Below are positions 893 through 46,210 of a DNA stretch of 64,000 bases, piece after piece. The DNA comes from Closterium sp. NIES-65 (taxonomy: Eukaryota > Streptophyta > Zygnematophyceae > Desmidiales > Closteriaceae), in contig CANXME010002549.1 of assembly GCA_948144175.1 (NCBI GenBank), forward strand, positions 1,951,501 to 2,015,500. Reading direction: 5' to 3'. The notes beneath the pieces are model-generated. The model saw nothing but the letters and a program-made list of their open reading frames with translations. It did no database searches and had not been told where the DNA came from. Position numbers and translations under genes: made by a program. Position 1 is the stretch's first letter. Every line of letters starts with the position of its first letter.

Positions 893-3800
893 GCGGTGAC
901 GCAACTGTTGGCGCACTTTGAGGCGTACCGCGACATCCCCAAGATAGCGGAGCTGCAGGGGCGGGTGGCGGCGCTCAAGGCCACGCTCAAGTCGCACATC
1001 TTCTCCGACTTCTCCACGTGTGTGCCGCCCCCCCAACCTGCCCCGCCGCCCTGCACGCCTGCACCTTGCACCACTGCTCTTGCCCTTTTCATGCTCCATG
1101 TGTACCCTGTCATGCCATGTTATGCATTGCCGTCTACCCATCTGCCATGCCATGCTATGTGCACATTACAGCACGACTCCTACTCGCATGCGTGCCACAC
1201 AATGTGCGTGGCTGGAGTGCCACACAATGTGCGTGGCTGGAGTGCCACACAATGTGCGTGGCTGGAGTGCCTCGTGTGGATGGACCAGCTGCGCTGCGCA
1301 CTGCTCCTTGGCTGACTGTCCATCATGTGCATCTCCATTCTTCTCCCTGTCCCCCCCCTCCCCCCCCAGCCTGGGCACGCCAGTGATGAGGGAGAACGGG
1401 CAGGTGATGCAGCAGCTGGCGGACGCGTGTCTGGTGGTGGCGGCGCTGGACGGCGAGGGGCACGCACGGGACGAGCTCGTGCGCTCCGTGTGCAGCAAGG
1501 AGCTCACTGCGTACCAGCAGATCTTCCAGGGCACGGGTCAGTACCAGCAGATCTTCCAGGGCACAGGTCAGTGCCAGCAGATCTTCCAGGGCACGGGTCA
1601 GTGCTTTCCCCTTCCACTCTCACTTTGTCAGTCTTTAAATTGTTGGCTTTGTTTCTCTTCCACTCGCGTCTCTATTCCTGTGCCCCACCTCTGTCCCTTG
1701 TGTCAAACCCCTCTGTCCGCCCCACTGCCGTTCCTGGGTGAGTGCCTCTCTCCTCCCCCTGTCCCCCTCACCCTTTCCACCTCGTGCCCCTCTCGCTCTC
1801 CCCCTCCCCACCTGGCAGACGTGGCGCGGATGGACAAGGTGGAGAGGCGGTACGTGTGGGTGAAGAGGCAGATGAAGCTGAACGAGGACGTGTGGCGCAT
1901 CTTCCCACCCGCCTGGCACGTGCAGCGCCTCCTCTGCTCGCACTTCTGCCGCATCACCCGGTGGGTGGGTGGGCATGGGGGAACCTCATCACTCGGTGGA
2001 TGGGGTGTGTGGTCCCATGGGGGGCCGGTACAGGGGATGGATGAACGCCAGCACGAGGGCTCAGATGGCGCTGGCTGTGATGTGGGCTCAGATGGCGCTG
2101 GCTGTGATGTGGGCTCAGATGGCGCTGGCTGTGATGTGGGCTCAGATGGCGCTGGCTGTGATGTGGGCTCAGATGGCGCTGGCTGTGATGTGGGCTCAGA
2201 TGGCGCTGGCTGTGATGTGGGCTCAGATGGCGCTGGCTGTGATGTGGGCTCAGATGGCGCTGGCTGTGATGTGGGCTCAGATGGCGCTGGCTGTGATGTG
2301 GGCTCAGATGGCGCTGGCTGTGATGTGGGCTCAGATGGCGCTGGCTGTGATGTGGGCTCAGATGGCGCTGGCTGTGATGTGGGCTCAGATGGCGCTGGCT
2401 GTGATGTGGGCTCAGATGGCGCTGGCTGTGATGTGGGCTCAGATGGCGCTGGCTGTGATGTGGGCTCAGATGGCGCTGGCTGTGATGTGGGCTCAGATGG
2501 CGCTGGCTGTGATGTGGGCTCAGATGGCGCTGGCTGTGATGTGGGCTCAGATGGCGCTGGCTGTGATGTGGGCTCAGATGGCGCTGGCTGTGATGTGGGC
2601 TCAGATGGCGCTGGCTGTGATGTGGGCTCAGATGGCGCTGGCTGTGATGTGGGCTCAGATGGCGCTGGCTGTGATGTGGGCTCAGATGGCGCTGGCTGTG
2701 ATGTGGGCTCAGATGGCGCTGGCTGTGATGTGGGCTCAGATGGCGCTGGCTGTGATGTGGGCTCAGATGGCGCTGGCTGTGATGTGGGCTCAGATGGCGC
2801 TGGCTGTGATGTGGGCTCAGATGGCGCTGGCTGTGATGTGGGCTCAGATGGCGCTGGCTGTGATGTGGGCTCAGATGGCGCTGGCTGTGATGTGGGCTCA
2901 GATGGCGCTGGCTGTGATGTGGGCTCAGATGGCGCTGGCTTGTGATGTGGGCTCAGATGGCGCTGGCTGTGATGTGGGCTCAGATGGCGCTGGCTGTGAT
3001 GTGGGCTCAGATGGCGCTGGCTGTGATGTGGGCTCAGATGGCGCTGGCTGTGATGTGGGCTCAGATGGCGCTGGCTGTGATGTGGGCTCAGATGGCGTTG
3101 GCTGTGATGTGGGCTCAGATGGCGCTGGCTGTGATGTGGGCTCAGATGGCGCTGGCTGTGATGTGGGCTCAGATGGCGCTGGCTGTGATGTGGGCTCAGA
3201 TGGCGCTGGCTGTGATGTGGGCTCAGATGGCGCTGGCTGTGATGTGGGCTCAGATGGCGCTGGCTGTGATGTGGGCTCAGATGGCGCTGGCTGTGATGTG
3301 GGCTCAGATGGCGCTGGCTGTGATGTGGGCTCAGATGGCGCTGGCTGTGATGTGGGCTCAGATGGCGCTGGCTGTGATGTGGGCTCAGATGGCGCTGGCT
3401 GTGATGTGGGCTCAGATGGCGCTGGCTGTGATGTGGGCTCAGATGGCGCTGGCTGTGATGTGGGCTCAGATGGCGCTGGCTGTGATGTGGGCTCAGATGG
3501 CGCTGGCTGTGATGTGGGCTCAGATGGCGCTGGCTGTGATGTGGGCTCAGATGGCGCTGGCTGTGATGTGGGCTCAGATGGCGCTGGCTGTGATGTGGGC
3601 TCAGATGGCGCTGGCTGTGATGTGGGCTCAGATGGCGCTGGCTGTGATGTGGGCTCAGATGGCGCTGGCTGTGATGTGGGCTCAGATGGCGCTGGCTGTG
3701 ATGTGGGCTCAGATGGCGCTGGCTGTGATGTGGGCTCAGATGGCGCTGGCTGTGATGTGGGCTCAGATGGCGCTGGCTGTGATGTGGGCTCAGATGGCGC

Positions 3801-6800
3801 TGGCTGTGATGTGGGCTCAGATGGCGCTGGCTGTGATGTGGGCTCAGATGGCGCTGGCTGTGATGTGGGCTCAGATGGCGCTGGCTGTGATGTGGGCTCA
3901 GATGGCGCTGGCTGTGATGTGGGCTCAGATGGCGCTGGCTGTGATGTGGGCTCAGATGGCGCTGGCTGTGATGTGGGCTCAGATGGCGCTGGCTGTGATG
4001 TGGGCTCAGATGGCGCTGGCTGTGATGTGGGCTCAGATGGCGCTGGCTGTGATGTGGGCTCAGATGGCGCTGGCTGTGATGTGGGCTCAGATGGCGCTGG
4101 CTATGATGTGGGCTCAGATGGCGCTGGCTGTGATGTGGGCTCAGATGGCGCTGGCTGTGATGTGGGCTCAGATGGCGCTGGCTGTGATGTGGGCTCAGAT
4201 GGCGCTGGCTGTGATGTGGGCTCAGATGGCGCTGGCTGTGATGTGGGCTCAGATGGCGCTGGCTGTGATGTGGGCTCAGATGGCGCTGGCTGTGATGTGG
4301 GCTCAGATGGCGCTGGCTGTGATGTGGGCTCAGATGGCGCTGGCTGTGATGTGGGCTCAGATGGCGCTGGCTGTGATGTGGGCTCAGATGGCGCTGGCTG
4401 TGATGTGGGCTCAGATGGCGCTGGCTGTGATGTGGGCTCAGATGGCGCTGGCTGTGATGTGGGCTCAGATGGCGCTGGCTGTGATGTGGGCTCAGATGGC
4501 GCTGGCTGTGATGTGGGCTCAGATGGCGCTGGCTGTGATGTGGGCTCAGATGGCGCTGGCTGTGATGTGGGCTCAGATGGCGCTGGCTGTGATGTGGGCT
4601 CAGATGGCGCTGGCTGTGATGTGGGCTCAGATGGCGCTGGCTGTGATGTGGGCTCAGATGGCGCTGGCTGTGATGTGGGCTCAGATGGCGCTGGCTGTGA
4701 TGTGGGCTCAGATGGCGCTGGCTGTGATGTGGGCTCAGATGGCGCTGGCTGTGATGTGGGCTCAGATGGCGCTGGCTGTGATGTGGGCTCAGATGGCGCT
4801 GGCTGTGATGTGGGCTCAGATGGCGCTGGCTGTGATGTGGGCTCAGATGGCGCTGGCTGTGATGTGGGCTCAGATGGCGCTGGCTGTGATGTGGGCTCAG
4901 ATGGCGCTGGCTATGATGTGGGCTCAGATGGCGCTGGCTGTGATGTGGGCTCAGATGGCGCTGGCTGTGATGTGGGCTCAGATGGCGCTGGCTGTGATGT
5001 GGGCTCAGATGGCGCTGGCTGTGATGTGGGCTCAGATGGCGCTGGCTGTGATGTGGGCTCAGATGGCGCTGGCTGTGATGTGGGCTCAGATGGCGCTGGC
5101 TGTGATGTGGGCTCAGATGGCGCTGGCTGTGATGTGGGCTCAGATGGCGCTGGCTGTGATGTGGGCTCAGATGGCGCTGGCTGTGATGTGGGCTCAGATG
5201 GCGCTGGCTGTGATGTGGGCTCAGATGGCGCTGGCTGTGACGTGGGCTCAGATGGCGCTGGCTGTGATGTGGGCTCAGATGGCGCTGGCTGTGATGTGGG
5301 CTCAGATGGCGCTGGCTGTGATGTGGGCTCAGATGGCGCTGGCTGTGATGTGGGCTCAGATGGCGCTGGCTGTGATGTGGGCTCAGATGGCGCTGGCTGT
5401 GATGTGGGCTCAGATGGCGCTGGCTGTGATGTGGGCTCAGATGGCGCTGGCTGTGATGTGGGCTCAGATGGCGCTGGCTGTGATGTGGGCTCAGATGGCG
5501 CTGGCTGTGATGTGGGCTCAGATGGCGCTGGCTGTGATGTGGGCTCAGATGGCGCTGGCTGTGATGTGGGCTCAGATGGCGCTGGCTGTGATGTGGGCTC
5601 AGATGGCGTTGGCTGTGATGTGGGCTCAGATGGCGCTGGCTGTGATGTGGGCTCAGATGGCGCTGGCTGTGATGTGGGCTCAGATGGCGCTGGCTGTGAT
5701 GTGGGCTCAGATGGCGCTGGCTGTGATGTGGGCTCAGATGGCGCTGGCTGTGATGTGGGCTCAGATGGCGCTGGCTGTGATGTGGGCTCAGATGGCGCTG
5801 GCTGTGATGTGGGCTCAGATGGCGCTGGCTGTGATGTGGGCTCAGATGGCGCTGGCTGTGATGTGGGCTCAGATGGCGCTGGCTGTGATGTGGGCTCAGA
5901 TGGCGCTGGCTGTGATGTGGGCTCAGATGGCGCTGGTTGTGATGTGGGCTCAGATGGCGCTGGCTGTGATGTGGGCTCAGATGGCGCTGGCTGTGATGTG
6001 GGCTCAGATGGCGCTGGCTGTGATGTGGGCTCAGATGGCGCTGGCTGTGATGTGGGCTCAGATGGCGCTGGCTGTGATGTGGGCTCAGATGGCGCTGGCT
6101 GTGATGTGGGCTCAGATGGCGCTGGCTGTGATGTGGGCTCAGATGGCGCTGGCTGTGATGTGGGCTCAGATGGCGCTGGCTGTGATGTGGGCTCAGATGG
6201 CGCTGGCTGTGATGTGGGCTCAGATGGCGCTGGCTGTGATGTGGGCTCAGATGGCGCTGGCTGTGATGTGGGCTCAGATGGCGCTGGCTGTGATGTGGGC
6301 TCAGATGGCGCTGGCTGTGATGTGGGCTCAGATGGCGCTGGCTGTGATGTGGGCTCAGATGGCGCTGGCTGTGATGTGGGCTCAGATGGCGCTGGCTGTG
6401 ATGTGGGCTCAGATGGCGCTGGCTGTGATGTGGGCTCAGATGGCGCTGGCTGTGATGTGGGCTCAGATGGCGCTGGCTGTGATGTGGGCTCAGATGGCGC
6501 TGGCTGTGATGTGGGCTCAGATGGCGCTGGCTGTGATGTGGGCTCAGATGGCGCTGGCTGTGATGTGGGCTCAGATGGCGCTGGCTGTGATGTGGGCTCA
6601 GATGGCGCTGGCTGTGATGTGGGCTCAGATGGCGCTGGCTGTGATGTGGGCTCAGATGGCGCTGGCTGTGATGTGGGCTCAGATGGCGCTGGTTGTGATG
6701 TGGGCTCAGATGGCGCTGGCTGTGATGTGGGCTCAGATGGCGCTGGCTGTGATGTGGGCTCAGATGGCGCTGGCTGTGATGTGGGCTCAGATGGCGCTGG

Positions 6801-9800
6801 CTGTGATGTGGGCTCAGATGGCGCTGGCTGTGATGTGGGCTCAGATGGCGCTGGCTGTGATGTGGGCTCAGATGGCGCTGGCTGTGATGTGGGCTCAGAT
6901 GGCGCTGGCTGTGACGTGGGCTCAGATGGCGCTGGCTGTGATGTGGGCTCAGATGGCGCTGGCTGTGATGTGGGCTCAGATGGCGCTGGCTGTGATGTGG
7001 GCTCAGATGGCGCTGGCTGTGATGTGGGCTCAGATGGCGCTGGCTGTGATGTGGGCTCAGATGGCGCTGGCTGTGATGTGGGCTCAGATGGCGCTGGCTG
7101 TGATGTGGGCTCAGATGGCGCTGGCTGTGATGTGGGCTCAGATGGCGCTGGCTGTGATGTGGGCTCAGATGGCGCTGGCTGTGATGTGGGCCACCTCAAC
7201 CACGCTACCCGTGCACTCTCTTGCCCCTGCTTCTTCTGACTCCTTTTCCATTGTGCTTGCATGCTAATGGCTGTCTCACTCACCTTGAACGTGTGCATTC
7301 GCGTGGCGTGAGATGGCATGGCATGGTCTGGCATGGCACGGTCTGTCATGGCATGTCTGGCATGGGGTGGTGTGGCGTGGCATGGCATGGCATGGCATGG
7401 CATTGCGTGGCATGGCATGGCATGGCATGGCATGGCGTGGCATGGCATGGCATGGCGTGGCGGGGCATGGCATGGCATGGCATGGCATGGCGTGGCATGG
7501 CATGGCATGGCGTGGCGTGGCATGGCATGGCGTGGCATGGCATGGCGTGGCGTGGCATGGCATGGCACGGAGCATGCAGGGCGCAGTTGAAGGAGCAGCT
7601 GGACGGATCCAAGGACAGACCAGATGTCACCACGCTCTTGCAGGTCACACCCCGTGCAGGTTATATTATACCTGGTGCAGGTCATTCATACCTGATGCAG
7701 GTCATACCTGGTGCAGGTCATACCCGGTGCAGGTCATACCTGGTGCAGGTCATACCCGGTGCAGAGTCCAGCTGCGCATGTGTGCTGCTGACTCTGACTT
7801 CACGGTGGCGTCAAATTAATGGACTCTAGTGATCAGCATCTCATACCCAGTGTTTCCTGCACTCTCCACGACTCGTTGCCTGAACCTTCCACTTCCCACC
7901 TCGACCCACCCGCTACTTCCCCACCCCCCCTCCCTCCTCCCCTCCCCGCCCTCCCCTCCTCTCCACACTCCCCCTCCCCCCCCACCAGGCGTTGGAGCGC
8001 ACGTTGGAGTTTGAGGACGACCTGGCCAAGCGCTTCCCCCCCGCGCCTGCCGCGGGCGCTGCCTCGCCCTCCTCGCCTGCTGCCGCTGCCCCCGCTGCTG
8101 GCGCCACTGATGTGGATGTGAGTCGCAGCGGGCGGGTGGGAGGGAGGGGAGGAAAGGCAGTGTGGCAGAGGGGGCTTGCGTGGGAAGATTATTAGCAAGG
8201 AAGAAGGCGAGCAGGGCGCGTGACGAATGGCCTTGAACACCAGTTGAACCCGGGCCAACCGGGCCCAGAACATTGCATTGCAGTCACACTCGTCCAACCT
8301 CTCCCGTTCCCGTGCTGCCTGCATGCAGTTTCAGTTCCAAGGGGCCATCTCATCGTGCTTTGAGCCGCACCTGGGGGTGTATGTGGACCTCGAGGAGCGC
8401 ACACTAGTGGACACACTTGACAAGCTTGTGCAGGTGATAGGCTGGTGCAGGTGACAACCGGTGCAGGTGACAACCGGTGCAGGTGACAACCGGTGCAGGT
8501 GACAACTGGTGCAGGTGACAACCGGTGCAGGTGACAACCGGTGCAGGTGACAACCGGTGCAGGTGACAACCGGATAAAAAACGTTGTGACTGACTGTATC
8601 TGTAGGTTGAGCACCATTTCGTAAGAAAGTTAGGATTGACCGTTAAAAATTCTACCTAAAGTTACTTCTCCAACAGGTACACTTAAAGGAGCTCCGCTCA
8701 TTCATCGATTGTCCTGTTTTTCTTTTCTGTGATGGTGCCGTGTGGTGCCGTGTGGTGCCGTGTGGTGCATGATTCACGGCAGGAGGAGACATGGGAGGCG
8801 GAGGAAGGCAGCCAAACCAATATCCTGCGCAGCAGCTCAGAGGTGGGAGGGTAACCGTAGTTGGGAGGAGTTGGGATGTGAGGGGGCATAGAAGCAGTCT
8901 CGACATCGCTGCTCTCAATCGTCCATTTGTTTTCATTGTAAACTTTCCTACAATGCCATCCTGCGTAGCCTGCGCCCCTGCTGTGCGGCAGATGTTTCTG
9001 GCGATCCGCAAGAGCTTCAACCGCTGCTGCCAGCTCACCAGGAAGCAAACGCTGCTCAGCCTCTTCCAGGTGAGCCTTCTTTGAGCAATAATGTGATGCC
9101 AGACTAATTGGCCTTGATGTGATTCTTCCTTTTGGGCGTCCTCAGTGTTCTCCTCTTCCCAAGCCACTTGTCTCCGCCTTTACATCATCAATGTGAGCAC
9201 CAGAGGCTCCTGCTGTTGGAGAGCTAGAATTGATACATTGAATAATGAGCCAAGAGGCTCTTTAGTACAAACAATGAGCAAGAGAGAGATGAGAGGGAAG
9301 CTTACCCTATTGGCCAATAAGTTGGCCAATGGGTGAGCTTGCTTGTGACCCAAGCAACCACAAATGTGTGTTGGTTGGGATTGGTTGAGCTAAGGACCAA
9401 TCCCAACCAACCACAAAATGTGGTTGGAGGGTACACTAAGCAACCCCCCAATTTATAAATGTGCTACACTTCTAGCCTATGTATGTTGTATGAAATATGA
9501 AATTACAACACCTGCTGCATGCACATCACTCGTCTCTCATCAGTGCTACCCCCTCCCCCCTCCCCCATCCGCCCCTCGTCCCGCCGTCTCCAGGTGTTCA
9601 AGCGTGTGCTGCGGCAGTACGCGGCGCGCCTCAGCGCCCGCCTGCCCCGCGCTGCCCAACCCACCGCAGGGGGCGAGTGGCAAGTCAAGGTGGGGCGGGG
9701 GGTAGGGTGAGGCGCATGGGGGTATGGCGGGGGAAGGGCCAAGGGGGCAAGGAGAGCACGGTGGGGATGAGAAGGCGGGGCAAGTAGGCATGCGATGGAT

Positions 9801-12800
9801 GTTGGGTGGGGGGGGGGGAAGGGTGGAGTGGATGAGATGCATGGATGCATGGATGCATGGATGCATATGGATGCATGGATGCATGGATGCATGGATGCAT
9901 GGATGCATGGGCGAGTGGGGAGGGCCGCAGGGAGCTGGCGGGGTGGGGTGGGTGGGGAGGTAGCAGTGGTTACAGGAGGCATGGCTCCACGCATGAGCGT
10001 TCGTGTGCTGTCAGCCTCGGCCGCCGTTGCAGTGCTGCTCCTTCGTGCTCTCTCCTCCTTCCCTTCCTTCCCGCCCACTCCCATTCTCCCCGTTTCTTTA
10101 TTGCACACAAGCTTGCACCTACAAATGGAAAGAAGAGGCGAGTCACACTCATTTCTATGTGCGCTGATTCTCGTCTGCCTCTGCCCACCCCGCACGTCTG
10201 GGCCCATGCGCGCAGATGACAGAGAAGGATGAGCGAGTGGTGTGCTACATCATCAACACAGCCGAGTACTGCCATGAGACGGTGAGTCTAGCTATGCTGC
10301 TCGTTACTCGTGCATCTCTCCATTCTCTCTTTCCTTTACAGTTCCTCCTTTCTACTTCTTCCCTCTCGTTACCACCGCTTCTCATTGCCACCCTCTCGTT
10401 ACCACCGCTTCTCATTGCCACCCTCTCGTCTCCCCTGTGCCCCTTTCCACGCCACCTCCCTTCCCTCTCTCCTCCCCCCATCCCCTCTTCCTTCGTGCCT
10501 CGTCTCTCCTTGGTGGGCAGCACAGCAGGCAGGGAGTGCACAAGCGGTCACCGGCACGACTGCTCCACGGCCGCTTGCATGCACCCACACCTCTCACGCC
10601 TCTATCTCCCTACCCTCTCTTCCTCCCCACTTGGTCTCCCCCCACGGCAGGCGGCATAGCTGGCGGAGAGCGGCGAATCGCGTCGTTGCGACGCTGGTGG
10701 GCTCACACTCATGCAACAGCAATCACCTCGTGTCCCTGCACCCCACCCTCTCGCCCCTTTCACTTGTCTCCCCCATGGCAGGCGGCCCAGCTGGCGGAGA
10801 GTGTGGCGAACCGCATCGATGCGGCGCTGGTGGGGTCCGTCGACATCAGCGACGAGCAGGTGGGATCCGTTGACATCAGCGACGAGCAGGTGGGATCCGT
10901 TGACATCAGCGATGAGCAGGTGGGATCCGTTGACATCAGCGACGAGCAGGTGGGATCCGTTGACATCAGCGACGAGCAGGTGGGATCCGTTGACATCAGC
11001 GACGAGCACGTGGGATCCGTTGACATCAGCGACGAGCAGGTGGGATCCTTCGACATCAGCGACGAGCAGGTGGGATCCGTCGACATCAGCGACGAGCAGG
11101 TGGGATCCGTTGACATCAGCGACGAGCAGGTGGGATCCGTTGACATCAGCGACGAGCAGGTGGGATCCGTCGACACCAGCGACGAGCAGGTGGGATCCGT
11201 CGACATCAGCGACGAGCAGGTGGGATCCGTCGACATCAGCGACGAGCAGGTGGGATCCGTCGACATCAACGACGAGCAGGTGGGATCCGTAGACATCAGC
11301 GACAAGCAGGTGGGATCCGTCGACATCAGCGACGAGCAGGTGGGATCCGTCGACATCAGCGACGAGCAGGTGGGATCCGTTGACATCAGCGACGAGCAGG
11401 TGGGATCCGTTGACATCAGCGACGAGCAGGTGGGATTCGTTGACATCAGCGACGAGCAGGTGGGATTCGTTGACATCAGCGACGAGCAGGTGGGATCCGT
11501 TGACATAAGCGACGAGCAGGTGGGATCCGTCGACATCAGCGACGAGCAGGTGGGATCCGTTGACATCAGCGACGAGCAGGTGGGATCCGTCGACATCAGC
11601 GACGAGCAGGTGGGATCCGTTGACATCAGCGACGAGCAGTTGGGATCCGTTGACATCAGCGACGAGCAGGTGGGATCCGTTGACATCAGCGACGAGCAGG
11701 TGGGATCCGTTGACATCAGCGACGAGCAGGTGGGATCCGTTGACATCAGCGACGAGCAGGTGGGATCCGTCGACATCAGCGACGAGCAGGTGGGATCCGT
11801 TGACACCAGCGACGAGCAGGTGGGATCCGTTGACATCAGCGACGAGCAGGTGGGATCCGTTGACATCAGCGACGAGCAGGTGGGATCCGTTGACATCAGC
11901 GACGAGCAGGTGGGATCCGTTGACATCAGCGACGAGCAGGTGGTGTCCGTTGACATCAGCGACGAGCAGGTGGGATCCGTTGACATCAGCGACGAGCAGG
12001 TGGGATCCGTTGACATCAGCGACGAGCAGGTGGGATCCGTTGACATCAGCGACGAGCAGGTGGGATCCGTTCACACCAGCGACGAGCAGGTGGGATCCTT
12101 TGACATCAGCGACGAGCAGGTGGGATCCGTTGACATCAGCGACGAGCAGGTGGGATCCGTCGACATCAGCGACGAGCCGGTGGGATCCGTCGACATCAGC
12201 GACGAGCAGGTGGGATCCGTCGACATCAGCGACGAGCAGGTGGGATCCGTCGACATCAGCGACGAGCAGGTGGGATCCGTCGACATCAGCGACGAGCAGG
12301 TGGGATCCGTTGACATCAGCGACGAGCAGGTGGGATCCGTTGACATCAGCGACGAGCAGGTGGGGTCCGTTGACATCAGCGACGAGCAGGTGGGGTCCGT
12401 TGACATCAGCGACGAGCAGGTGGGGTCCGTTGACATCAGCGATGAGCAGGTGGGATCCGTTGACATCAGCGACGAGCAGGTGGGATCCATTGACATCAGC
12501 GACGAGCAGGTGGGATCCGTTGACATCAGCGACGAGCAGGTGGGATCCGTTGACATCAGCGACGAGCAGGTGGGATCCGTTGACACCAGCGACGAGCAGG
12601 TGGGATCCTTTGACATCAGCGACGAGCAGGTGGGATCCGTTGACATCAGCGACGAGCAGGTGGGATCCGTCGACATCAGCGACGAGCAGGTGGGATCCGT
12701 CGACATCAGCGACGAGCAGGTGGGATCCGTCGACATCAGCGACGAGCAGGTGGGATCCGTAGACATCAGCGACAAGCAGGTGGGATCTGTCGACATCAGC

Positions 12801-15800
12801 GACGAGCAGGTGGGATCCGTTGACATCAGCGACGAGCAGGTGGGATCCGTTGACATCAGTGACGAGCAGGTGGGATCCGTTGACATCAGCGACGAGCAGG
12901 TGGGGTCCGTTGACATCAGCGACGAGCAGGTGGGATCCGTTGACATCAGCGACGAGCAGGTGGGATCCGTTGACATCAGCGACGAGCAGGTGGGATCCGT
13001 TGACATCAGCGACGAGCAGGTGGGATCCGTTGACATCAGCGACGAGCAGGTGGGATCCGTTGACATCAGCGACGAGCAGGTGGGATCCGTCGACATCAGC
13101 GACGAGCAGGTGGGATCCGTTGACATCAGCGACGAGCAGGTGGGATCCGTTGACATCAGCGACGAGCAGGTGGGATCCGTCGACATCAGCGACGAGCAGG
13201 TGGGATCCGTTGACATCAGCGACGAGCAGGTTGGGGGGAGAGGGGGGTGGGGGGGAGACAGGAAGGAATGCGTGTGGTGAGGAGGAGCTGGTTGGAGGGG
13301 TGAAGTGAAGGCAGGTGGGAGGGGGGAAGGAGGAACTCGTGCGGCTGAAGGGAGATGTGTGTGGGGGAAGCAGCTCTAGTGGTCAATGCACAGTCACAAT
13401 CCCACCCCCCTGCCATGTGCGTTTGTGTACAAAAGTTGGTAGTTTCTTGTATCTAGTAGTAATTGTCCTATTTTACAAACTACACAAACATTTGAAACGA
13501 CTCCATCTCGTGCTTCTTCCTCACCTCACCATGCTGCCATGCCACCCGGTCAACCCCTGTCTCCATGCACTGCTGTTTGCCATGATGTCCTCGCATGGCA
13601 TGGCCAGGAGGAGTTTTCAAGTGCCATCATACGGCCGCTGGCGGTGTTGCTATCATGATGTGTTGCTATCATGATGTGTTGCTATCATGATGTGTTGCTA
13701 TCATGATGTGTTGCTATCATGATGTGTTGCTATCATGATGTGTTGCTATCATGATGTGTTGCCATCATGATGTGTTGCTATCATGATGTGTTGCTATCAT
13801 GATTTGTTGCTATCATGATGTGTTGCTATCATGATGTGTTGCTATCATGATGTGTTGCTATCATGATGTGTTGCTATCATGATGTGTTGCTATCATGATG
13901 TGTTGCTATCATGATGTGTTGCTATCATGATGTGTTGCTATCATGATGTGTTGCCATCATGATGTGTTGCTATCATGATGTGTTGGTATCATGATTTGTT
14001 GCTATCATGTTGTGTTGCTATCATGATGTGTTGCTATCATGATGTGTTGCTATCATGATGTGTTGCTATCATGATGTGTTGCTATCATGATGTGTTGCTA
14101 TCATGATGTGTTGCTATCATGATGTGTTGCTATCATGATGTGTTGCTATCATGATGTGTTGCTATCATGATGTGTTGCTATCATGATGTGTTGCTATCAT
14201 GATGTGTTGCTATCATGATGTGTTGCTATCATGATGTGTTGCTATCATGATGTGTTGCTATCATGATGTGTTGCTATCATGATGTGTTGCTATCATGATG
14301 TGTTGCTATCATGATGTGTTGCTATCATGATGTGTTGCTATCATGATGTGTTGCTATCATGATGTGTTGCTATCATGATGTGTTGCTGTCATGATGTGTT
14401 GCTATCATGATGTGTTGCTATCATGATGTGTTGCTATCATGATGTGTTGCTATCATGATGTGTTGCTATCATGATGTGTTGCTATCATGATGTGTTGCCA
14501 TCATGATGTGTTGCTATCATGATGTGTTGCTATCATGATGTGTTGCCATCATGATGTGTTGCTATCATGTGATGTTGCTATCATGATGTGTTGCTATCAT
14601 GATGTGTTGCTATCATGATGTGTTGCCATTATGATGTGTTGCTATCATGATGTGTTGCTATCATGATGTGTTGCCATCATGATGTGTTGCTATCATGATG
14701 TGTTGCTATCATGATGTGTTGCTATCATGATGTGTTGCTATCATGATTTGTTGCTATCATGATGTGTTGCTATCATGATGTGTTGCTATCATGATGTGTT
14801 GCTATCATGATGTGTTGCTATCATGATGTGTTGCTATCATGATGTGTTGCTATCATGATGTGTTGCTATCATGATGTGTTGCTATCATGATGTGTTGCTA
14901 TCATGATGTGTTGCTATCATGATGTGTTGCTATCATGATGTTGCTATCATGATGTGTTGCTATCATGATGTGTTGCTATCATGATGTGTTGCTATCATGA
15001 TGTGTTGCTATCATGATGTGTTGCTATCATGATGTGTTGCTATCATGATGTGTTGCTATCATGATGTGTTGCTATCATGATGTGTTGCTATCATGATGTG
15101 TTGCTATCATGATGTGTTGCTATCATGATGTGTTGCTATCATGATGTGTTGCTATCATGATGTGTTGCTATCATGATGTGTTGCTATCATGATGTGTTGC
15201 TATCATGATGTGTTGCTATCATGATGTGTTGCCATCATGATGTGTTGCCATCATGATGTGTTGCTATCATGATGTGTTGCTATCATGATGTGTTGCCATC
15301 ATGATGTGTTGCTATCATGATGTGTTGCCATCATGATGTGTTGCTATCATGATGTGTTGCTATCATGATGTGTTGCTATCATGATGTGTTGCTATCATGA
15401 TGTGTTGCTATCATGATGTGTTGCCATCATGATGTGTTGCTATCATGATGTGTACGCTCGACCTTTTTGCCCCAACCACTCCCTCCCACCCCCACCCCAC
15501 CCTCGGCTTCCTCCCATGCTGCGACGTGGCAGGAGGAGTTTTCAAGCGCCATCACGCGCGCGCTGGCAGTGCTGGTGGCGGGGCTGGAGGGGCGGCTGGA
15601 CGGCGAGCTGGACCGCATGGCGCGCATGCCCTGGAGCACCCTTGAGTCCGTGGGCGACCAATCCGAGTGAGCCACGTGGCACTGCTGCTGGTGCGGTCGT
15701 GTTGTGTGATTGTGCAGTGGCTGGCTTGCAGGTGCTGTATGCATTTCACAATCACATTCACATTCACATAGCACGGGTGCACCGGTATGTGCTGCGTTGA

Positions 15801-18800
15801 CAAAGAGCAGCAATACACATTCAGCGTTCCAAGTGGTGCGGGATACACGGCATGGCATGGGAGCACAGCACACACATTTGGCCATGCGCATATGTCTCCC
15901 TCTCCGCAGCCACAACACCTTCCACATCCACCTTCCACCTTCCAACCCACTTCCTTCCCCCCCCCCAATCCCTACTCTCCGCGCTCTGGTCCCCTCGTGT
16001 GGCGCGCAGGTTCGTGAACAATCTGAGCGCCATCTGCTCCAACTCCATCCCCATGCTCGCAGGGCTGCTCTCGCCGCTGCACTTCCACTTCTTCCTCGAT
16101 AAGGTGCGCCCCTCCACCTCCATTACCTGCCCCTTCCGCCTCAGTGCTTTGCCATTGCACGTGTGACTGAATGTGTGCCTTAGCGTCAGTGGGGATGCGG
16201 CGAATGTGCGGTACTGCATGCGGGGTTGACCATGTGCGGTACTGCATACGGTGTTGACCATGTGCCCGATGCCTAAATGCGTCCACCTGCCCGCTGGGCC
16301 CACCATGCCCGCTCGCCTGCTTGCGGCTAGCCCTGTTACAAATCGTTGGTGGGCATTTCACGATTGATGGCGAGCGGACTTGACAGGCAACAAGCACTGG
16401 CCGCACATGCACGGACGAGCACGAGCCAGCGAGGCTTGTCAGCCCCCCTCACATTGCCTGCTTCTACTCAACCCCGCCTCGTCCCAACCTGGCTCAAGCC
16501 GGCCCTGGCGTCCCCCATGCTCACGCGTACTCCCTGTTCTGCTCCCCCAATCTCCCCAACTCCCTCGCCCATCACGCGCGCCTCACTCCCCGAGCGCCAG
16601 CTGGCAGCGTCATTCGGCCCGCGCTACTACGCCACGGTCTTCAAGGCCAAACGCCTCTCCGGCACCGGCGCCCAGCAGGTGATGCCCCCATGCCATGGCG
16701 CCCAGCAGGTGATGCCCCCATGCCATGGCGCCCAGCAGGTGATGCCCTCATGCCATGGCTTAAGCCTTGCGGTGGTAGAACACCCTAGAGATTGGATTTT
16801 GGATGAACAAAGCGTGTGCTCTTCGTAAATTTGCACTTAAACTGCTGTATCAACCATGCTGCCGTGTTGGTCCCTTTCGCACAAGCCCGGCCTTCATCTC
16901 ATTCCCACAGCTCTGTGTCTGTGTGTATGCCTTCCCACAGCTCTGTGTCTGTGTGTATGCCTTCCGATTCTTTATCCCTCTTGCTGTCCCATCTCCACCC
17001 CAACTCCGCTCCATCTCTCCCTCCCGTCTTCCCTGTGCCAACTCTCACTGGGCCCACGTCCCTGCCCCTCGCTGCACCCATGCCCCGCCACACGGATGCT
17101 GCTGGACACGCACGGCATCAAGACCATCCTGCTCCAGCTGCCAGCCCACTGCTCTGATTCCCCATCCCACTTGCTGACACATGTCCCTCTCCCGTCCCCC
17201 ACTGCCACTCCTGCGCGCATGCCCTCTCATTGCCGCCCACACCAGATGCTGCTGGACACGCACGGCATCAAGACCATTCTGCTCGAGCTGCCTGCACTGG
17301 GGGGCCTCGTGAGTCATGCCATGCCATGCCATGCACTGGGGGCCCTCGTGAGTCATGCCATGCCATGCCATGCACTGGGGGGGCTCGTGAGTCATGCCAT
17401 GCTATGTGCGCTGCTCCCACCACTGCACGCACCCGTCTCCCACTCTTGTTGCTGATTCTGTCCACGCATCTCAGTGCCACACAGACCATGCTCCCCCTCT
17501 CCCACCACTCCTGTCTCACCACTTACCCCGCCTCTTCGACCTCTCTGCCTCCTCCCTCACCCCCATGTACCCTCGTGCAGGCGGCCACAGCAGCGTACAG
17601 CAAGTATGTGACGCGCGAGATGGGGCGATCAGAGGCGCTGCTCAAGGTGAGATGGGGCGATCAGAGGCGCTGCTCAAGGTGAGATGGGGCGATCAGAGGC
17701 GCTGCTCAAGGTGAGATGGGGCGATCAGAGGCGCTGCTCAAGGTGAGATGGGGCGATCAGAGGCGTTGCTCAAGGTGAGATGGGGCGATCAGAGGCGCTG
17801 CTCAAGGTGAGATGGGGCGATCAGAGGCGCTGCTCAAGGTGAGATGGGGCGATCAGAGGCGCTGCTCAAGGTGAGATGGGGCGATCAGAGGCGCTGCTCA
17901 AGGTGAGATGGGGCGATCAGAGGCGCTGCTCAAGGTGAGATGGGGCGATCAGAGGCGCTGCTCAAGGTGAGATGGGGCGATCAGAGGCGCTGCTCAAGGT
18001 GAGATGGGGCGATCAGAGGCGCTGCTCAAGGTGAGATGGGGCGATCAGAGGCGCTGCTCAAGGTGAGATGGGGCGATCAGAGGCGCTGCTCAAGGTGAGA
18101 TGGGGCGATCAGAGGCGCTGCTCAAGGTGAGATGGGGCGATCAGAGGCGCTGCTCAAGGTGAGATGGGGCGATCAGAGGCGCTGCTCAAGGTGAGATGGG
18201 GCGATCAGAGGCGCTGCTCAAGGTGAGATGGGGCGATCAGAGGCGCTGCTCAAGGTGAGATGGGGCGATCAGAGGCGCTGCTCAAGGTGAGATGGGGCGA
18301 TCAGAGGCGCTGCTCAAGGTGAGATGGGGCGATCAGAGGCGCTGCTCAAGGTGAGATGGGCGATCAGAGGCGCTGCTCAAGGTGAGATGGGGCGATCAGA
18401 GGCGCTGCTCAAGGTGAGATGGGGCGATCAGAGGCGCTGCTCAAGGTGAGATGGGGCGATCAGAGGCGCTGCTCAAGGTGAGATGGGGCGATCAGAGGCG
18501 CTGCTCAAGGTGAGATGGGGCGATCAGAGGCGCTGCTCAAGGTGAGATGGGGCGATCAGAGGCGCTGCTCAAGGTGAGATGGGGCGATCAGAGGCGCTGC
18601 TCAAGGTGAGATGGGGCGATCAGAGGCGCTGCTCAAGGTGAGATGGGGCGATCAGAGGCGCTGCTCAAGGTGAGATGGGGCGATCAGAGGCCCTGCTCAA
18701 GGTGAGATGGGGCGATCAGAGGCGCTGCTCAAGGTGAGATGGGGCGATCAGAGGCGTTGCTCAAGGTGAGATGGGGCGATCAGAGGCGCTGCTCAAGGTG

Positions 18801-21220
18801 AGATGGGGCGATCAGAGGCGCTGCTCAAGGTGAGATGGGGCGATCAGAGGCGCTGCTCAAGGTGAGATGGGGCGATCAGAGGCGCTGCTCAAGGTGAGAT
18901 GGGGCGATCAGAGGCGCTGCTCAAGGTGAGACGGGGCGATCAGAGGCGCTGCTCAAGGTGAGATGGGGCGATCAGAGGCGCTGCTCAAGGTGAGATGGGG
19001 CGATCAGAGGCGCTGCTCAAGGTGAGATGGGGCGATCAGAGGCGCTGCTCAAGGTGAGATGGGGCGATCAGAGGCGCTGCTCAAGGTGAGATGGGGCGAT
19101 CAGAGGCGCTGCTCAAGGTGAGATGGGGCGATCAGAGGCGCTGCTCAAGGTGAGATGGGGCGATCAGAGGCGCTGCTCAAGGTGAGATGGGGCGATCAGA
19201 GGCGCTGCTCAAGGTGAGATGGGGCGATCAGAGGCGCTGCTCAAGGTGAGATGGGGCGATCAGAGGCGCTGCTCAAGGTGAGATGGGGCGATCAGAGGCG
19301 CTGCTCAAGGTGAGATGGGGCGATCAGAGGCGCTGCTCAAGGTGAGATGGGGCGATCAGAGGCGCTGCTCAAGGTGAGATGGGGCGATCAGAGGCGCTGC
19401 TCAAGGTGAGATGGGGATGTCTCATCGCTGCTCCTGCCCTGCCCTCCCTGCCTGCTATGCATCTTTCCGCTGCAATGCTTGGCTCTCTTCCATTGTAGTA
19501 CTGCCATTGGTCTGCTGGCCATGCTCCCTCTCGCTCACGCCCTGCCTCCATCCCACTCCTGCGCCCCTGTTGGGGGAGCCATCACCCCTCCTCTCCTCCC
19601 CCCCACCAGGTGGTGCTAGCGCCACAGGAGAACCTGGTGGACACGTACCGCACGCTGCTGCCCGATGGCTCCGCTGCTGACTTCCTGCGCACACTCGACC
19701 TCAAGGTGCGCACACTCGACCTCAAGGTGCGCACACTCGACCTCAAGGTGCGCACACTCGACCTCAAGGTGTGCACACTCGACCTCAAGGTGCGCACACT
19801 CGACCTCAAGGTGCGCACACTCGACCTCCAGGTGCGCACACTCGACCTCAAGGTGCGCACACTCGACCTCAAGGTGCGCACACTCGACCTCAAGGTGCGC
19901 ACACTCGACCTCAAGGTGCGCACACTCGACCTCAAGGTGCGCACACTCGACCTCAAGGTGCGCACACTCGACCTCATGGTGCGCACACTCGACCTCAAGG
20001 TGCGCACACTCGACCTCAAGGTGCGCACACTCGACCTCAAGGTGCGCACACTCGACCTCAAGGTGCGCACACTCGACCTCAAGGTGCGCACACTCGACCT
20101 CAGGGTGCGCACACTCGACCTCAAGGTGCGCACACTCGACCTCAAGGTGCGCACACTCGACCTCAAGGTGCGCACACTCGACCTCAAGGTGCGCACACTC
20201 GACCTCAAGGTGCGCACACTCGACCTCAAGGTGCGCACACTCGACCTCAAGGTGCGCACACTCGACCTCAAGGTGCGCACACTCGACCTCAAGGTGCGCA
20301 CACTCGACCTCAGGGTGCGCACACTCGACCTCAAGGTGTGCACACTCGACCTCAAGGTGCGCACACTCGACCTCAAGGTGCGCACACTCGACCTCAAGGT
20401 GCGCACACTCGACCTCAAGGTGCGCACACTCGACCTCAAGGTGCGCACACTCGACCTCAGGGTGCGCACACTCCACCTCAAGGTGCGCACACTCGACCTC
20501 AGGGTGCGCACACTCGACCTCAAGGTGCGCACACTCGACCTCAGGGTGCCCACACTCGACCTCAAGGTGCGCCGCCCCCCCAATGGGTGGCACTCTTGCT
20601 GTGTGCCCCGTATTGCACCCTGCGCACACTTGACCTCAAGATATCCATTGGCTTGAAATGAACTGGCACACTACAGTATCGCTGCTTCCCCTCTTACCTT
20701 CCCTCCCTTTTCCCACTGTACGCATCGCGCTATCATCACCCCCCACCTCTTCGATCATTGTTTCCTCGTCCACCCTCTGCACGCACGTGCCCACCTGTCT
20801 CGCCCACCACAGGGAGTGAAGAAGCCAGAGCAGCAGCCACTGGTAGACGCGCTCACAGCCAAGCTCAGAGCAGCAGCGCCCACTCAGGCCCCGCCCTCCA
20901 AGTCCCCCACCTCCTCCGCGGCACCCTCCACCTCCACCGCCTCTCACCCACTGCCTGCCACGGCTGCTGCCGCTCCCCCAGCTGCCACAGCCACCGCTGC
21001 TGCCGCTGCAGCAGCAGGCATGCTGACGAGCGCTGCCAGCCGCGAGGCCATGATAGCGCGGGCGGCAGCGCTGGGGCGGGGAGCCATGGCGCAGTCAGCG
21101 GCGGCGGCAGCAGCGGTGTCGCAGAACACGGCGCTGAAACGCATCTTTGCCCTCGCTGATTCCTCCACCGCCAGTGCGTCCAAGAAAGACATGTCCTTCC
21201 GCTCCCTCTTCAATGCTTAG
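893..21220 (+). CDS. VPS53: VPS53, GARP/EARP tethering complex subunit (18 exons, 5' end off-window)
   Basis: VPS53 joins VPS51, VPS52 and VPS54 (GARP) or VPS50 (EARP) and tethers endosome-derived vesicles at the trans-Golgi network. Spliced exons give 682 residues plus stop, and reading phase is kept at all 17 junctions. I recognise the order of plant VPS53 blocks: [18 protein letters not shown], then [141 protein letters not shown] and [11 protein letters not shown], ending FRSLFNA. Against an ~830-residue plant protein (from memory) about 150 N-terminal residues should lie upstream; the first exon here starts in phase 0. The last exon carries an Ala/Pro/Ser-rich linker before the conserved tail. 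Identity is near certain. Exon ends at repeat-bearing donors are less certain, because several equivalent donors exist. Confidence 0.95.
1194..1268. repeat. 25-bp tandem repeat, three copies, VPS53 intron 1
   Basis: Three identical 25-bp units containing ACAATGTGCGTGGC. This array is not at the donor, unlike most repeats in this gene. Confidence 0.9.
1507..1600 (+). repeat. 30-bp triplication of exon 2 end plus splice donor
   Basis: The last 30 bases of exon 2 (reading YQQIFQGTG) and the following GTCAGT donor occur three times, ending at 1536, 1566 and 1596. The unit is a multiple of three without a stop, so any of the three donors keeps the frame and adds 0, 10 or 20 residues before [11 protein letters not shown]. 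Comparison with plant VPS53 favours the first donor. Confidence 0.9.
2058..7190. repeat. 27-bp satellite, ~190 copies, VPS53 intron 3
   Basis: A 5.1-kb array of a 27-bp unit containing GGCTCAGATGGCGCTGGCTG. It is very homogeneous: only scattered single substitutions, and one 1-bp insertion at about 2941. Because 27 is divisible by three the array is open in several frames on both strands, which creates very long but meaningless ORFs. A near-copy of the exon 3 end and donor (CATCACTCGGTGGATGG) sits at 1987-2003, between the exon and the array. Confidence 0.97.
7313..7568. repeat. GGCAT/GGCGT pentanucleotide microsatellite
   Basis: About fifty pentamers of CATGG or CGTGG in VPS53 intron 3, just ahead of the exon 4 acceptor at 7578-7579. 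Confidence 0.95.
7640..7766 (+). repeat. 16-bp donor-anchored repeat after exon 4
   Basis: About seven units of TGCAGGTCATACCTGG, partly lengthened in the second and third. The first unit is the end of exon 4 (TTGCAG) plus its GTCACACC donor. A 16-bp period would shift the frame if a later donor were used. Confidence 0.85.
8428..8573 (+). repeat. 16-bp donor-anchored repeat after exon 6
   Basis: Exon 6 ends GTGCAG followed by GTGATAGG. Eight tandem copies of TGCAGGTGACAACCGG follow, each presenting the same GCAG/GTGA border. Unit length and sequence are close to the array after exon 4. Confidence 0.88.
9150..9520. other. AT-richer insert with a hairpin in VPS53 intron 8
   Basis: This stretch is clearly AT-richer than the rest of the gene. 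At 9370-9385 and 9396-9411 lie perfect 16-bp inverted arms (GTTGGTTGGGATTGGT and its complement) around a 10-base loop. A degraded MITE-like insertion is possible, but no target duplication was identified. Confidence 0.5.
9836..9910. repeat. 8-bp ATGCATGG repeat, VPS53 intron 9
   Basis: Roughly nine copies of GGATGCAT. Each contains the palindrome ATGCAT, so the array can fold on itself. Confidence 0.9.
10361..10430. repeat. 30-bp direct repeat, VPS53 intron 10
   Basis: Two identical adjacent 30-bp pyrimidine-rich units (10361-10390 and 10391-10420) starting CCCTCTCGTTACC. Confidence 0.9.
10521..10781 (+). pseudogene. Decayed upstream copies of VPS53 exon 11 with a 131-bp period
   Basis: A copy at 10651-10705 matches the genuine exon from 10782, including its pyrimidine tract and CAG acceptor, but reads GCG GCA TAG at its start and so has an early stop. 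A weaker copy, with its own CAG at 10518-10520, starts 130 bp earlier. The spacing points to a local tandem duplication of acceptor plus exon, in which only the last copy stays functional. Confidence 0.75.
10830..13229 (+). repeat. 30-bp donor-anchored satellite, exactly 80 units, at exon 11 end
   Basis: 2,400 bases in perfect 30-bp register. The first unit is the coding end of exon 11 (GSVDISDEQ, matching the [14 protein letters not shown] junction expected in VPS53). Each later unit repeats the coding text and the CAG/GTGGGA donor. All 80 stay in frame with no stop, reading [10 protein letters not shown]. Variation includes frequent GTT/GTC changes and rarer replacements such as DTSDEQ, DINDEQ, SFDIS and DEQL. 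Whether the array is spliced out from the first donor or partly translated cannot be told from DNA alone. Confidence 0.95.
13608..13656 (+). pseudogene. Ghost copy of VPS53 exon 12 start
   Basis: A CAG acceptor at 13605-13607 is followed by sequence reading [14 protein letters not shown], then a stop. The true exon 12 at 15533 reads [14 protein letters not shown]. Roughly 35 of 42 bases match. The 16-bp satellite that fills the rest of the intron begins inside this ghost. Confidence 0.8.
13644..15453. repeat. 16-bp satellite, ~113 copies, VPS53 intron 11
   Basis: 1.8 kb of TGTTGCTATCATGATG with few variants (GCCATC, GATTTG) and two small length changes near 14570 and 14940. It is AT-richer than its surroundings and has no coding value. 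Confidence 0.97.
16203..16260. repeat. 28-bp direct repeat, VPS53 intron 13
   Basis: Two adjacent 28-bp units containing TGTGCGGTACTGCAT with few differences. Confidence 0.85.
16668..16760 (+). repeat. 30-bp donor-anchored triplication after exon 14
   Basis: The end of exon 14 (GCGCCCAGCAG, reading GAQQ) and its GTGATGCCC donor are repeated in 30-bp units, giving donors at 16679, 16709 and 16739. In frame, the extra units would read [10 protein letters not shown]. Confidence 0.88.
16903..16962. repeat. 30-bp direct repeat, VPS53 intron 14
   Basis: Two identical 30-bp units containing CACAGCTCTGTGTCTG, each with a CAG preceded by pyrimidines that could act as a decoy acceptor. Confidence 0.85.
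17096..17160 (+). pseudogene. Upstream copy of VPS53 exon 15, 150 bp before the real exon
   Basis: Reads [16 protein letters not shown], nearly identical to exon 15 at 17246 ([16 protein letters not shown]) with about three base differences in 48. The base pair ahead of it is GG instead of the AG acceptor, and no GT donor follows, so it should be skipped. The close match implies a recent duplication. Confidence 0.85.
17295..17411 (+). repeat. 39-bp donor-anchored triplication after exon 15
   Basis: Three 39-bp units starting at 17295, 17334 and 17373 repeat the exon 15 end (CACTGGGGGGCCTC) and GTGAGTCATGCC donor. The unit length keeps reading phase. Confidence 0.9.
17617..19405 (+). repeat. 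32-bp donor-anchored satellite, 55 copies after exon 16
   Basis: The final 30 bases of exon 16 (reading [10 protein letters not shown]) plus GT form a 32-bp unit. After the exon end at 17646 there are 55 further units, 1,759 bases in all, with a single 1-bp deletion near 18359. Every unit offers CTCAAG/GTGAGA, a strong donor. Because 32 is not a multiple of three, use of most later donors would shift the frame, so the first donor is expected to be the productive one. Confidence 0.95.
19685..20566 (+). repeat. 21-bp donor-anchored satellite, 42 units at exon 17 end
   Basis: The end of exon 17 (CTGCGCACACTCGACCTCAA plus G, reading LRTLDLK) is followed by 41 in-frame 21-bp units reading VRTLDLK, each with an AAG/GTGCGC donor. 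An isolated decayed copy without the GT sits at 20620-20640. Exon 18 begins GVKKPEQQ, matching the plant junction LELK/GLKKADQQ, which supports splicing from a CTCAAG end. Confidence 0.95.
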
Positions 21221-30287: not shown

Positions 30288-30419
30288 GACGACGACTGTG
30301 AAGCAGTGCAAGCAGTAGGGGGGAGAGCACGCAGTGACAGTGGGACTGTGCTCACCAGGCAGGGCAGGTTGCGTAGCTCGACAGAAAGGCAGCTCGGCGA
30401 CCGGGCGGCTCGGGTGCAC

Positions 30420-31310
30420 AGCAGCTCGGCTCCCGGGCGGCTCGGCGGCAGGGCAGCTCGGGGGCAGGGCGGCTCGGCTCCCGGGCGGCTCGGCGACAGG
30501 GCGGCTCGGGTGCAGGGCGGCTCGGCTCCCGGGCGGCTCGGCGGCACAGCTGCTCAGAGGTCCGCCCGCACAGTCGCTACAGGTGGACGGCGGGGCCGAT
30601 GCGTAGTGGGCGGCGAAGCCGCGGTTGAGCAGGCGGCGGCCGCAGCCTAGTGGGCTGGGAGGCCGCGGTCGTAGCAGGCGGCGGGGCCGTGCGAGCAGGC
30701 GGCTGGGGCCGCGGTAGTAGGTGGGCGGCGGGGCCGCGCGAGAAGACGGCCGGGGCCGCTACGGTAGTAGGCGGCGGGGCCGCGGTCGAACAGGCGGCTG
30801 GCGCCGCGGTCGTAGCAGGCGGCGGGGCCGTGCAAGCAGGCGGCCGGGGCCGCGGTAGTAGAGGGCGGCGAGGCCGCGCTAGCAGGCGGCCGGGGCCGCG
30901 ACAGTAGCGGGCAGCGGGGCCGCGGTCGAACAGGCGGCTGGGGGGCCGCGGTCGAGCAAGCGGCCGGGGCCGCGGTAGTAGCGGGCGGCGAGGCCGTGCG
31001 AGCAGGCAGCCGGGGCCGCGACAGGAGCGGGCGGCGGGGCCGCGGTCGAACAGGCGGCTGGGGCCGCGGTCGTAGCAGGCGGCCGGGGCCGCGATCGTAG
31101 TGGGCGGCGGCCGCGGCGTAGCGGGCGGCAGGGCCGCGTCGAGCAGGCGGCTGGGGGGCCGCGTCGAGCAGGCGGCTGGGGGCCGCGTCGAGCAGGCGGC
31201 TGGGGCCGCGATCGTAGCGGGCGGCTGGGGCCGCGTGTGGGAGGGAGGCGACACGGAGGGTCGCTCGAGAGCAGAAAAAAAAAAGTTGAGCGCGCCTCGG
31301 GGCGCGCTTC
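30420..31310 (-). repeat. GC-rich tandem leader repeat of Copia A1
   Basis: Imperfect units of about 30 bases built from GGCCGCGGTCGTAGCAGGCG-like text fill the element's 5' untranslated leader. Apparent ORFs in it on both strands are composition artefacts. Confidence 0.8.
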
Positions 31311-32456: not shown

Positions 32457-32502
32457 AGCTGGTATCAGAGCTGCGTTATAGTGATCCTCGTTATAGGTAG
32501 CT

Positions 32503-46172: not shown

Positions 46173-46210
<38 letters not shown>

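Follow-up and report, generated by a model that had tools for sequence, protein, structure and literature searches.

In three genes of Closterium, nearly half of the exon ends studied were copied in tandem, together with their splice signal, into the intron that follows, a pattern that points to a hot spot of small duplications at exon-intron borders. The duplications span the border, are in excess at donors, differ in unit length between donors and acceptors and change in copy number between gene copies, and the protein models of relatives carry single copies. We consider it fairly probable (about 0.6) that tandem duplications of the microhomology type arise at the borders and grow into minisatellites, and that they are tolerated where the first donor or the last acceptor still gives a normal mRNA.

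VPS53 and its donor arrays

Closterium is a unicellular green alga and kin of the land plants. The source assembly comprised 874 Mb in 2400 contigs, and the window, i.e., the whole stretch of 64,000 nucleotides analysed, corresponds to C2251:1951501-2015500. A protein search with the translated locus identified VPS53 of Closterium, a membrane-traffic gene; the NIES-64 model was 99% identical over 76% of the query, and the NIES-68 model was 87% identical over the full query. The window holds 18 exons and 17 donors of this gene, with consistent phases and GT...AG at every intron. The five initial exons of the gene are located upstream of the window, and their donors (N1 to N5) bring the total to 22; all exons join in frame over GT...AG introns.

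For spliced alignment three templates were used: P0001 (the NIES-68 model), P0003 (intronless, as 882 amino acids are encoded on a 3.1-kb contig) and P0005 (a transcript). All three agreed on 21 of the 22 donors, and two of the three on that of E5. The position of the E6 acceptor depended on the template, P0005 yielded side-introns near E5-E6, and one template yielded a further one within E18; such single-template solutions were excluded before the counts were made. Since the alignments with three proteins agreed, the VPS53 borders are probably more than a guess of the sequence-only reading on which this study builds.

A second gene inside the window was sought for internal comparison and not found, the open reading frames at 24-64 kb being read as retroelements. 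Long frames at 24384-30758, 32497-37083 and 44916-50977, among others, resembled Copia-type or other retroelement polyproteins, several of them nested or broken. A crude codon-usage scan of the 210 kb to the left of the window gave VPS53 only, the rest being retroelement-like or low-complexity frames.

The gene and its donor repeats in the window are listed below, with units and copy numbers as reported by TRF where indicated.

893..21220, + strand, VPS53 exons E1-E18 (translation, protein search, spliced alignment)
1511..1602, + strand, E2 donor array, 30 bp x 3.1 (TRF); donor after base 1536
1951..2005, + strand, E3 donor duplication, two copies offset by 35 bp (border match with 2 mismatches in 16 at +35); donor after base 1960
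7636..7764, + strand, E4 donor array, about 16 bp, first copies degenerate; donor after base 7643
8428..8573, + strand, E6 donor array, 16 bp x 9.1 (TRF); donor after base 8433
10829..13231, + strand, E11 donor array, 30 bp x 80.1 (TRF); donor after base 10859
16667..16759, + strand, E14 donor array, 30 bp x 3.1 (TRF); donor after base 16678
17289..17406, + strand, E15 donor array, 39 bp x 3.1 (TRF); donor after base 17308
17617..19416, + strand, E16 donor array, 32 bp x 56.3 (TRF); donor after base 17646
19686..20572, + strand, E17 donor array, 21 bp x 42.2 (TRF); donor after base 19705

The sequence-only reading had named eight of the 17 donors (E2, E4, E6, E11, E14, E15, E16 and E17) as bearing repeats. 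All eight had copies, and the unit lengths and copy numbers given for them were borne out by TRF; the list was incomplete, as the two-copy duplication at E3 had been overlooked. E4 was the weaker case, since its TRF array (7654-7764) begins about 10 bases past the donor and the border 16-mer recurs 57 bp further on with three mismatches. Upstream of the window, copies were present at N1 (34 bp, two copies), N2 (19 bp x 3.1) and N4 (21 bp x 28.3), whereas a border copy was sought at N3 and N5 and not found. Three of these five out-of-sample donors were therefore duplicated. Most, though not all, of the donors with copies fitted the AGGT type of border; the exon ends at E2, E3 and E15 were CGG, CCG and CTC, respectively.

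The donor arrays occupied only the 5' part of the introns, the 3' ends of which consisted of unrelated sequence. Their units, of about 10-100 bp, were arranged head to tail with high identity between copies, and the multi-copy arrays were young and near-uniform, with a TRF match of 88-100%. By number, most arrays lay away from donors: 13 of the 20 TRF arrays in the window part of VPS53 had no donor inside. One such array, 27 bp x 190 at 2057-7191, began 97 bp after the E3 donor, within intron 3.

Contig C266 carried a second VPS53 with exons 98.5-100% identical to those of the window copy. All eight arrays named earlier were also present there, and the founding duplications are therefore older than the split of the two copies. 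Copy number differed for five of the window arrays: E2 had 3.1 copies in the window and 2.1 in C266, E6 9.1 and 8.1, E11 80.1 and 150.1, E16 56.3 and 43.3, and E17 42.2 and 43.2. E14 and E15 had 3.1 copies in both, and intron 4, with the E4 array, was of the same length in both. The donor arrays behave like minisatellites. Large arrays away from donors also come and go between the copies: intron 3 measured 5619 bp in the window and 410 bp in C266, where the 27-bp array was not found. Intron 8 measured 524 bp in the window and 6445 bp in C266 (L009-L012), the extra 5.9 kb containing several arrays of its own.

Donor and acceptor duplications in three genes

In the border test, a copy of the 16-mer across the border was sought within 60 bp downstream with at most three mismatches, and positions in array-collapsed introns served as the null; the acceptor version sought copies upstream. 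The test was devised after VPS53 had been seen and treats donors as independent; on these terms 8 of the 17 window donors passed, compared with 4.7% of intron positions outside repeat copies (P ~4e-7). None of the 17 window acceptors had such a copy. In the whole of VPS53, 11 of 22 donors passed against a background of 6.7% (P = 4e-8), rising to 12 of 22 when four mismatches were allowed, and with three mismatches none of the 22 acceptors passed.

A donor lay inside 7 of the 20 TRF arrays of window VPS53 (that of E4 not among them), compared with 1.1-1.3 under random placement, and an acceptor inside 0 of the 20, compared with about 1.1-1.4.

Two adaptin genes were added as an independent test. 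A search for family PF01602 led, among the 41 matches listed, to AP-1 gamma (L034) and to AP-2 alpha, of which the initial part was used (L035 and L036); the templates agreed on 16 and 14 introns, respectively. Before the counts, the intron that one of four templates placed at 8259 in AP-1 gamma was excluded, and one AP-1 gamma donor was shifted by hand from 3754 to a GC donor at 3760 before the border test. This intron, at about 3754-3766 of L034, is a probable GC-AG intron (AAG|GCAAGC, set by hand).

Within 60 bp and with three mismatches, 1 of 16 donors passed in AP-1 gamma (background 4.0%). In AP-2 alpha 6 of 14 passed (background 6.2%, P = 1.1e-4); this gene had been picked partly because the 10 kb between its matches made long introns rich in repeats more likely, while AP-1 gamma appeared compact. 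For both genes together the donor count was 7 of 30 against 5.5% (P = 1e-3), and at the same settings none of the 30 acceptors passed. Comparison of the borders showed, for example, that the AP-2 alpha exon ends CTCACCATG, ACTGACACATG and GATATCAG repeat with the GT as units of 21, 32 and 29 bp, respectively.

When copies up to 250 bp away were admitted, 9 of 14 AP-2 alpha donors passed against 13.3% (P = 1.4e-5), while AP-1 gamma alone showed no significant excess (3 of 16 against 10.4%, P = 0.23). Both adaptins together gave 12 of 30 donors against 12.3% (P = 1.2e-4) and 6 of 30 acceptors against 6.3% (P = 0.01), and at this distance the difference between donors and acceptors was not significant (Fisher P = 0.16). 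A looser threshold of four mismatches within 250 bp weakened the adaptin result to 12 of 30 donors against 22.7% (P = 0.026) and 8 of 30 acceptors against 15.8% (P = 0.09).

The excess in VPS53, found again in AP-2 alpha, is therefore not confined to one gene. The suggestion of a locus- or genome-wide process was borne out in part: short-unit donor duplications were far above the intron background in VPS53 and AP-2 alpha, but AP-1 gamma alone was not significant. That the pattern extends from three genes to the whole genome is something we infer.

Acceptors were duplicated as well, with longer units. Three such copies were found in VPS53.

10608..10704, + strand, E11', decayed copy of acceptor and exon start, 133 bp upstream of the real one
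13605..13649, + strand, E12', copy of acceptor and exon start, offset 131 bp with the intervening 16-bp array collapsed
17079..17145, + strand, E15', copy of acceptor and exon start, 149 bp upstream, AG lost

In array-collapsed VPS53, these three and one extra copy of the E17 exon end were the only local duplications of at least 22 bp at a distance of 40-600 bp. The start of a 16-bp x 113 array at 13644-15453 lies inside E12', and C266 has 21 copies of its unit; dead exon copies may therefore seed arrays too. The adaptins had seven acceptor-side copies, at offsets of 104, 125, 134, 136, 147, 158 and 220 bp, that at 147 being weak. An array of 104 bp x 3.3 at 11218-11564 of AP-2 alpha (L035+L036) consists of acceptor and exon start and was the sole acceptor-containing TRF array in the three genes.

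Acceptor-side copies, partly listed by hand, thus numbered 10 among 52 acceptors, with all units between 104 and 220 bp; matches at VPS53 2398 and AP-1 gamma 2185 were judged unconvincing and left out. At donors, the 24 cases had a median unit of 30 bp, and 22 were shorter than 100 bp, compared with 10 of 10 acceptor units of at least 104 bp (Fisher 5e-7). The AP-2 alpha case at 9625 was entered as 21 bp, the array unit, while its best border match was at 149 bp; scored at 149 bp, it lowers the number of donor units shorter than 100 bp to 21 of 24, and that of multiples of three to 9 of 24. An excess at donors with none at acceptors, which had been proposed as the check, was therefore found for short units (0 of 52 acceptors within 60 bp and three mismatches) but not for duplication as such, since acceptors are copied with units of at least 104 bp. 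The real exon was the copy that adjoins the rest of the exon, i.e., the first at donors and the last at acceptors.

Origin and maintenance of the duplications

Array starts were counted in 30-bp bins over the three genes for TRF arrays with a score of at least 30 and a period of at least 10. Left edges numbered 4 at -60 to -31, 14 at -30 to -1 and 9 at 0 to 29, followed by 2, 2, 2, 4, 6 and 2 per 30 bp up to +209; the low counts farther into the intron are due in part to introns that stop short of these bins and to the room occupied by long arrays. Seventeen of the arrays that start in an exon contain the donor. Near the acceptors, 16 arrays end within the last 30 intron bases, pyrimidine tracts being likely among them.

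The preferred reading supposes a genome prone to short tandem duplications in introns, above all at exon-intron borders. The founding duplication, about 16-80 bp long at donors and 100-220 bp long at acceptors, would put the exon edge and its splice site into the intron. It may have arisen through microhomology: the last partial copy measured 1-8 bases in 13 of the 17 donor-containing TRF arrays (an arithmetic count without a null), which is what microhomology would leave and was therefore counted in favour of this origin. Donor arrays would then expand and contract by whole units through slippage or unequal exchange, and they would be retained because splicing at the 5'-most donor or the 3'-most acceptor gives a normal mRNA; in the living cell the first donor would be the one used.

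At a donor, every unit length should pass this splice filter. A short duplication at an acceptor would set a new AG just past the old branch point and lead to its mistaken use, so that the survivors would be duplications long enough to bring their own branch point and pyrimidine tract. The length rule rests on the choice of the AG downstream of the branch point, which is established splicing knowledge. The filter would thus account for the asymmetry in unit length, but it leaves the excess of donors over the neighbouring intron unexplained. Nor does it predict that array starts should cluster at the border (14 + 9) as against 2, 2 and 2 at +30 to +119, and a local mutation bias or something similar is therefore needed.

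A rival explanation is a mutation process aimed at donors and linked to transcription or splicing (R-loops, nicks, a paused polymerase or RNA-templated repair) that duplicates 5' splice sites. The donor excess over the intron interior and the start peak at the border agree with this explanation, which we nevertheless hold to be doubtful, since acceptor-side duplications occur too and the data favour none of the proposed lesions over another. The R-loop idea put forward earlier found no support, as array-bearing donors were no more G-rich on the coding strand and had no stronger G skew than other donors, and G skew as a cause was rejected. A broader proposal, that the used 5' splice site itself triggers tandem duplication through nascent RNA, U1 or polymerase pausing, and that many Closterium donors genome-wide seed minisatellites, drive intron growth and supply spare splice sites, is likewise put forward only tentatively.

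It is unlikely that ordinary intronic minisatellites met donors by chance, or were better detected there because selection keeps the exonic copy recognisable. Non-donor arrays are common in VPS53 (13 of 20 in the window part) and equally unstable, as the 190 copies in intron 3 against none in C266 illustrate, and old two-copy border duplications do benefit from a conserved exonic side. However, random placement gave 1.1-1.3 donor-containing arrays where TRF found 7, and the multi-copy donor arrays, at 88-100% match, are so young that slow exonic decay cannot matter; for VPS53 this explanation is already unlikely. Random insertion of a dispersed satellite was rejected, as none of twelve unit dimers had a match outside its gene of origin and the second copy of that gene in 338,000 bases searched.

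If the arrays were coding, later donors would be used and exon ends would carry variable peptide repeats. The E11 array is open in the exon frame across all copies, its changes lean towards synonymous (7 of 18 against 21% expected, P = 0.066), and the two differences between exon and array are both synonymous, so that later E11 donors might be used; human genes can also keep such repeats in the exon (PMC2812944). Against this, 14 of the 24 donor units were not multiples of three and 10 were, as expected by chance, and later donors therefore cannot be used much. Among the E17 copies 0 of 6 substitutions were synonymous, which argues that these copies are under no coding constraint. The NIES-68 VPS53 and Yama58-4 AP-2 alpha protein models had single copies at the borders checked. 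The sole model that enters an array, that of NIES-64 VPS53 (P0002) at E16, changes frame with the 32-bp unit and ends there, most likely through a prediction error. We therefore regard coding arrays as very improbable.

Relation to known duplications

The sequence-only reading had known of no described system with this pattern, which proved too strong. In human genes within segmental duplications, minisatellites lie across exon-intron boundaries, with an average unit of 30 bp and about four copies; genome-wide, 27 intron and 53 exon modifications were counted and tied to recent segmental duplications (PMC2812944). The Closterium arrays resemble these in having units of about 30 bp over exon-intron boundaries that vary between recent gene copies. 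They differ from the human set in affecting up to half of the donors of one gene, in reaching up to 150 copies and in combining short units at donors with long ones at acceptors.

Tandem duplication of exon pieces containing AGGT is an accepted route of intron gain (PMC4974935, PMC3443670). In a fission-yeast case described there, several 24-bp AGGT copies are spanned by the intron, and in a potato case the intron end and exon start are duplicated. The tandem copies of exon end and GT in Closterium are of the same kind, and the potato case resembles the acceptor-side copies. However, in the intron gain outlined in these texts a new intron is made inside an exon, whereas the Closterium copies lengthen an existing intron whose acceptor lies elsewhere. 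The change by whole units and the near-identical copies are shared with ordinary VNTRs or minisatellites of introns, but the Closterium array starts within the final coding bases of the exon and takes in the donor.

No description of donor-concentrated arrays was found in the open literature with narrow queries, subscription journals being outside the scope. As far as this search goes, the kind of event is already known, and what is new is its density at donors, the size of the arrays and the rule that separates donors from acceptors.

If the pattern is genome-wide, a normally rare splice-border duplication would become common enough for its process to be studied, and natural arrays with 2 to 150 copies of the same donor would offer a test of how the spliceosome selects one 5' splice site from a set of equals. 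The arrays would also be a live source of intron growth. For annotation, they call for caution: the NIES-64 model of VPS53 already runs on into the array at E16, and further gene models of Closterium may contain errors caused by donor arrays.
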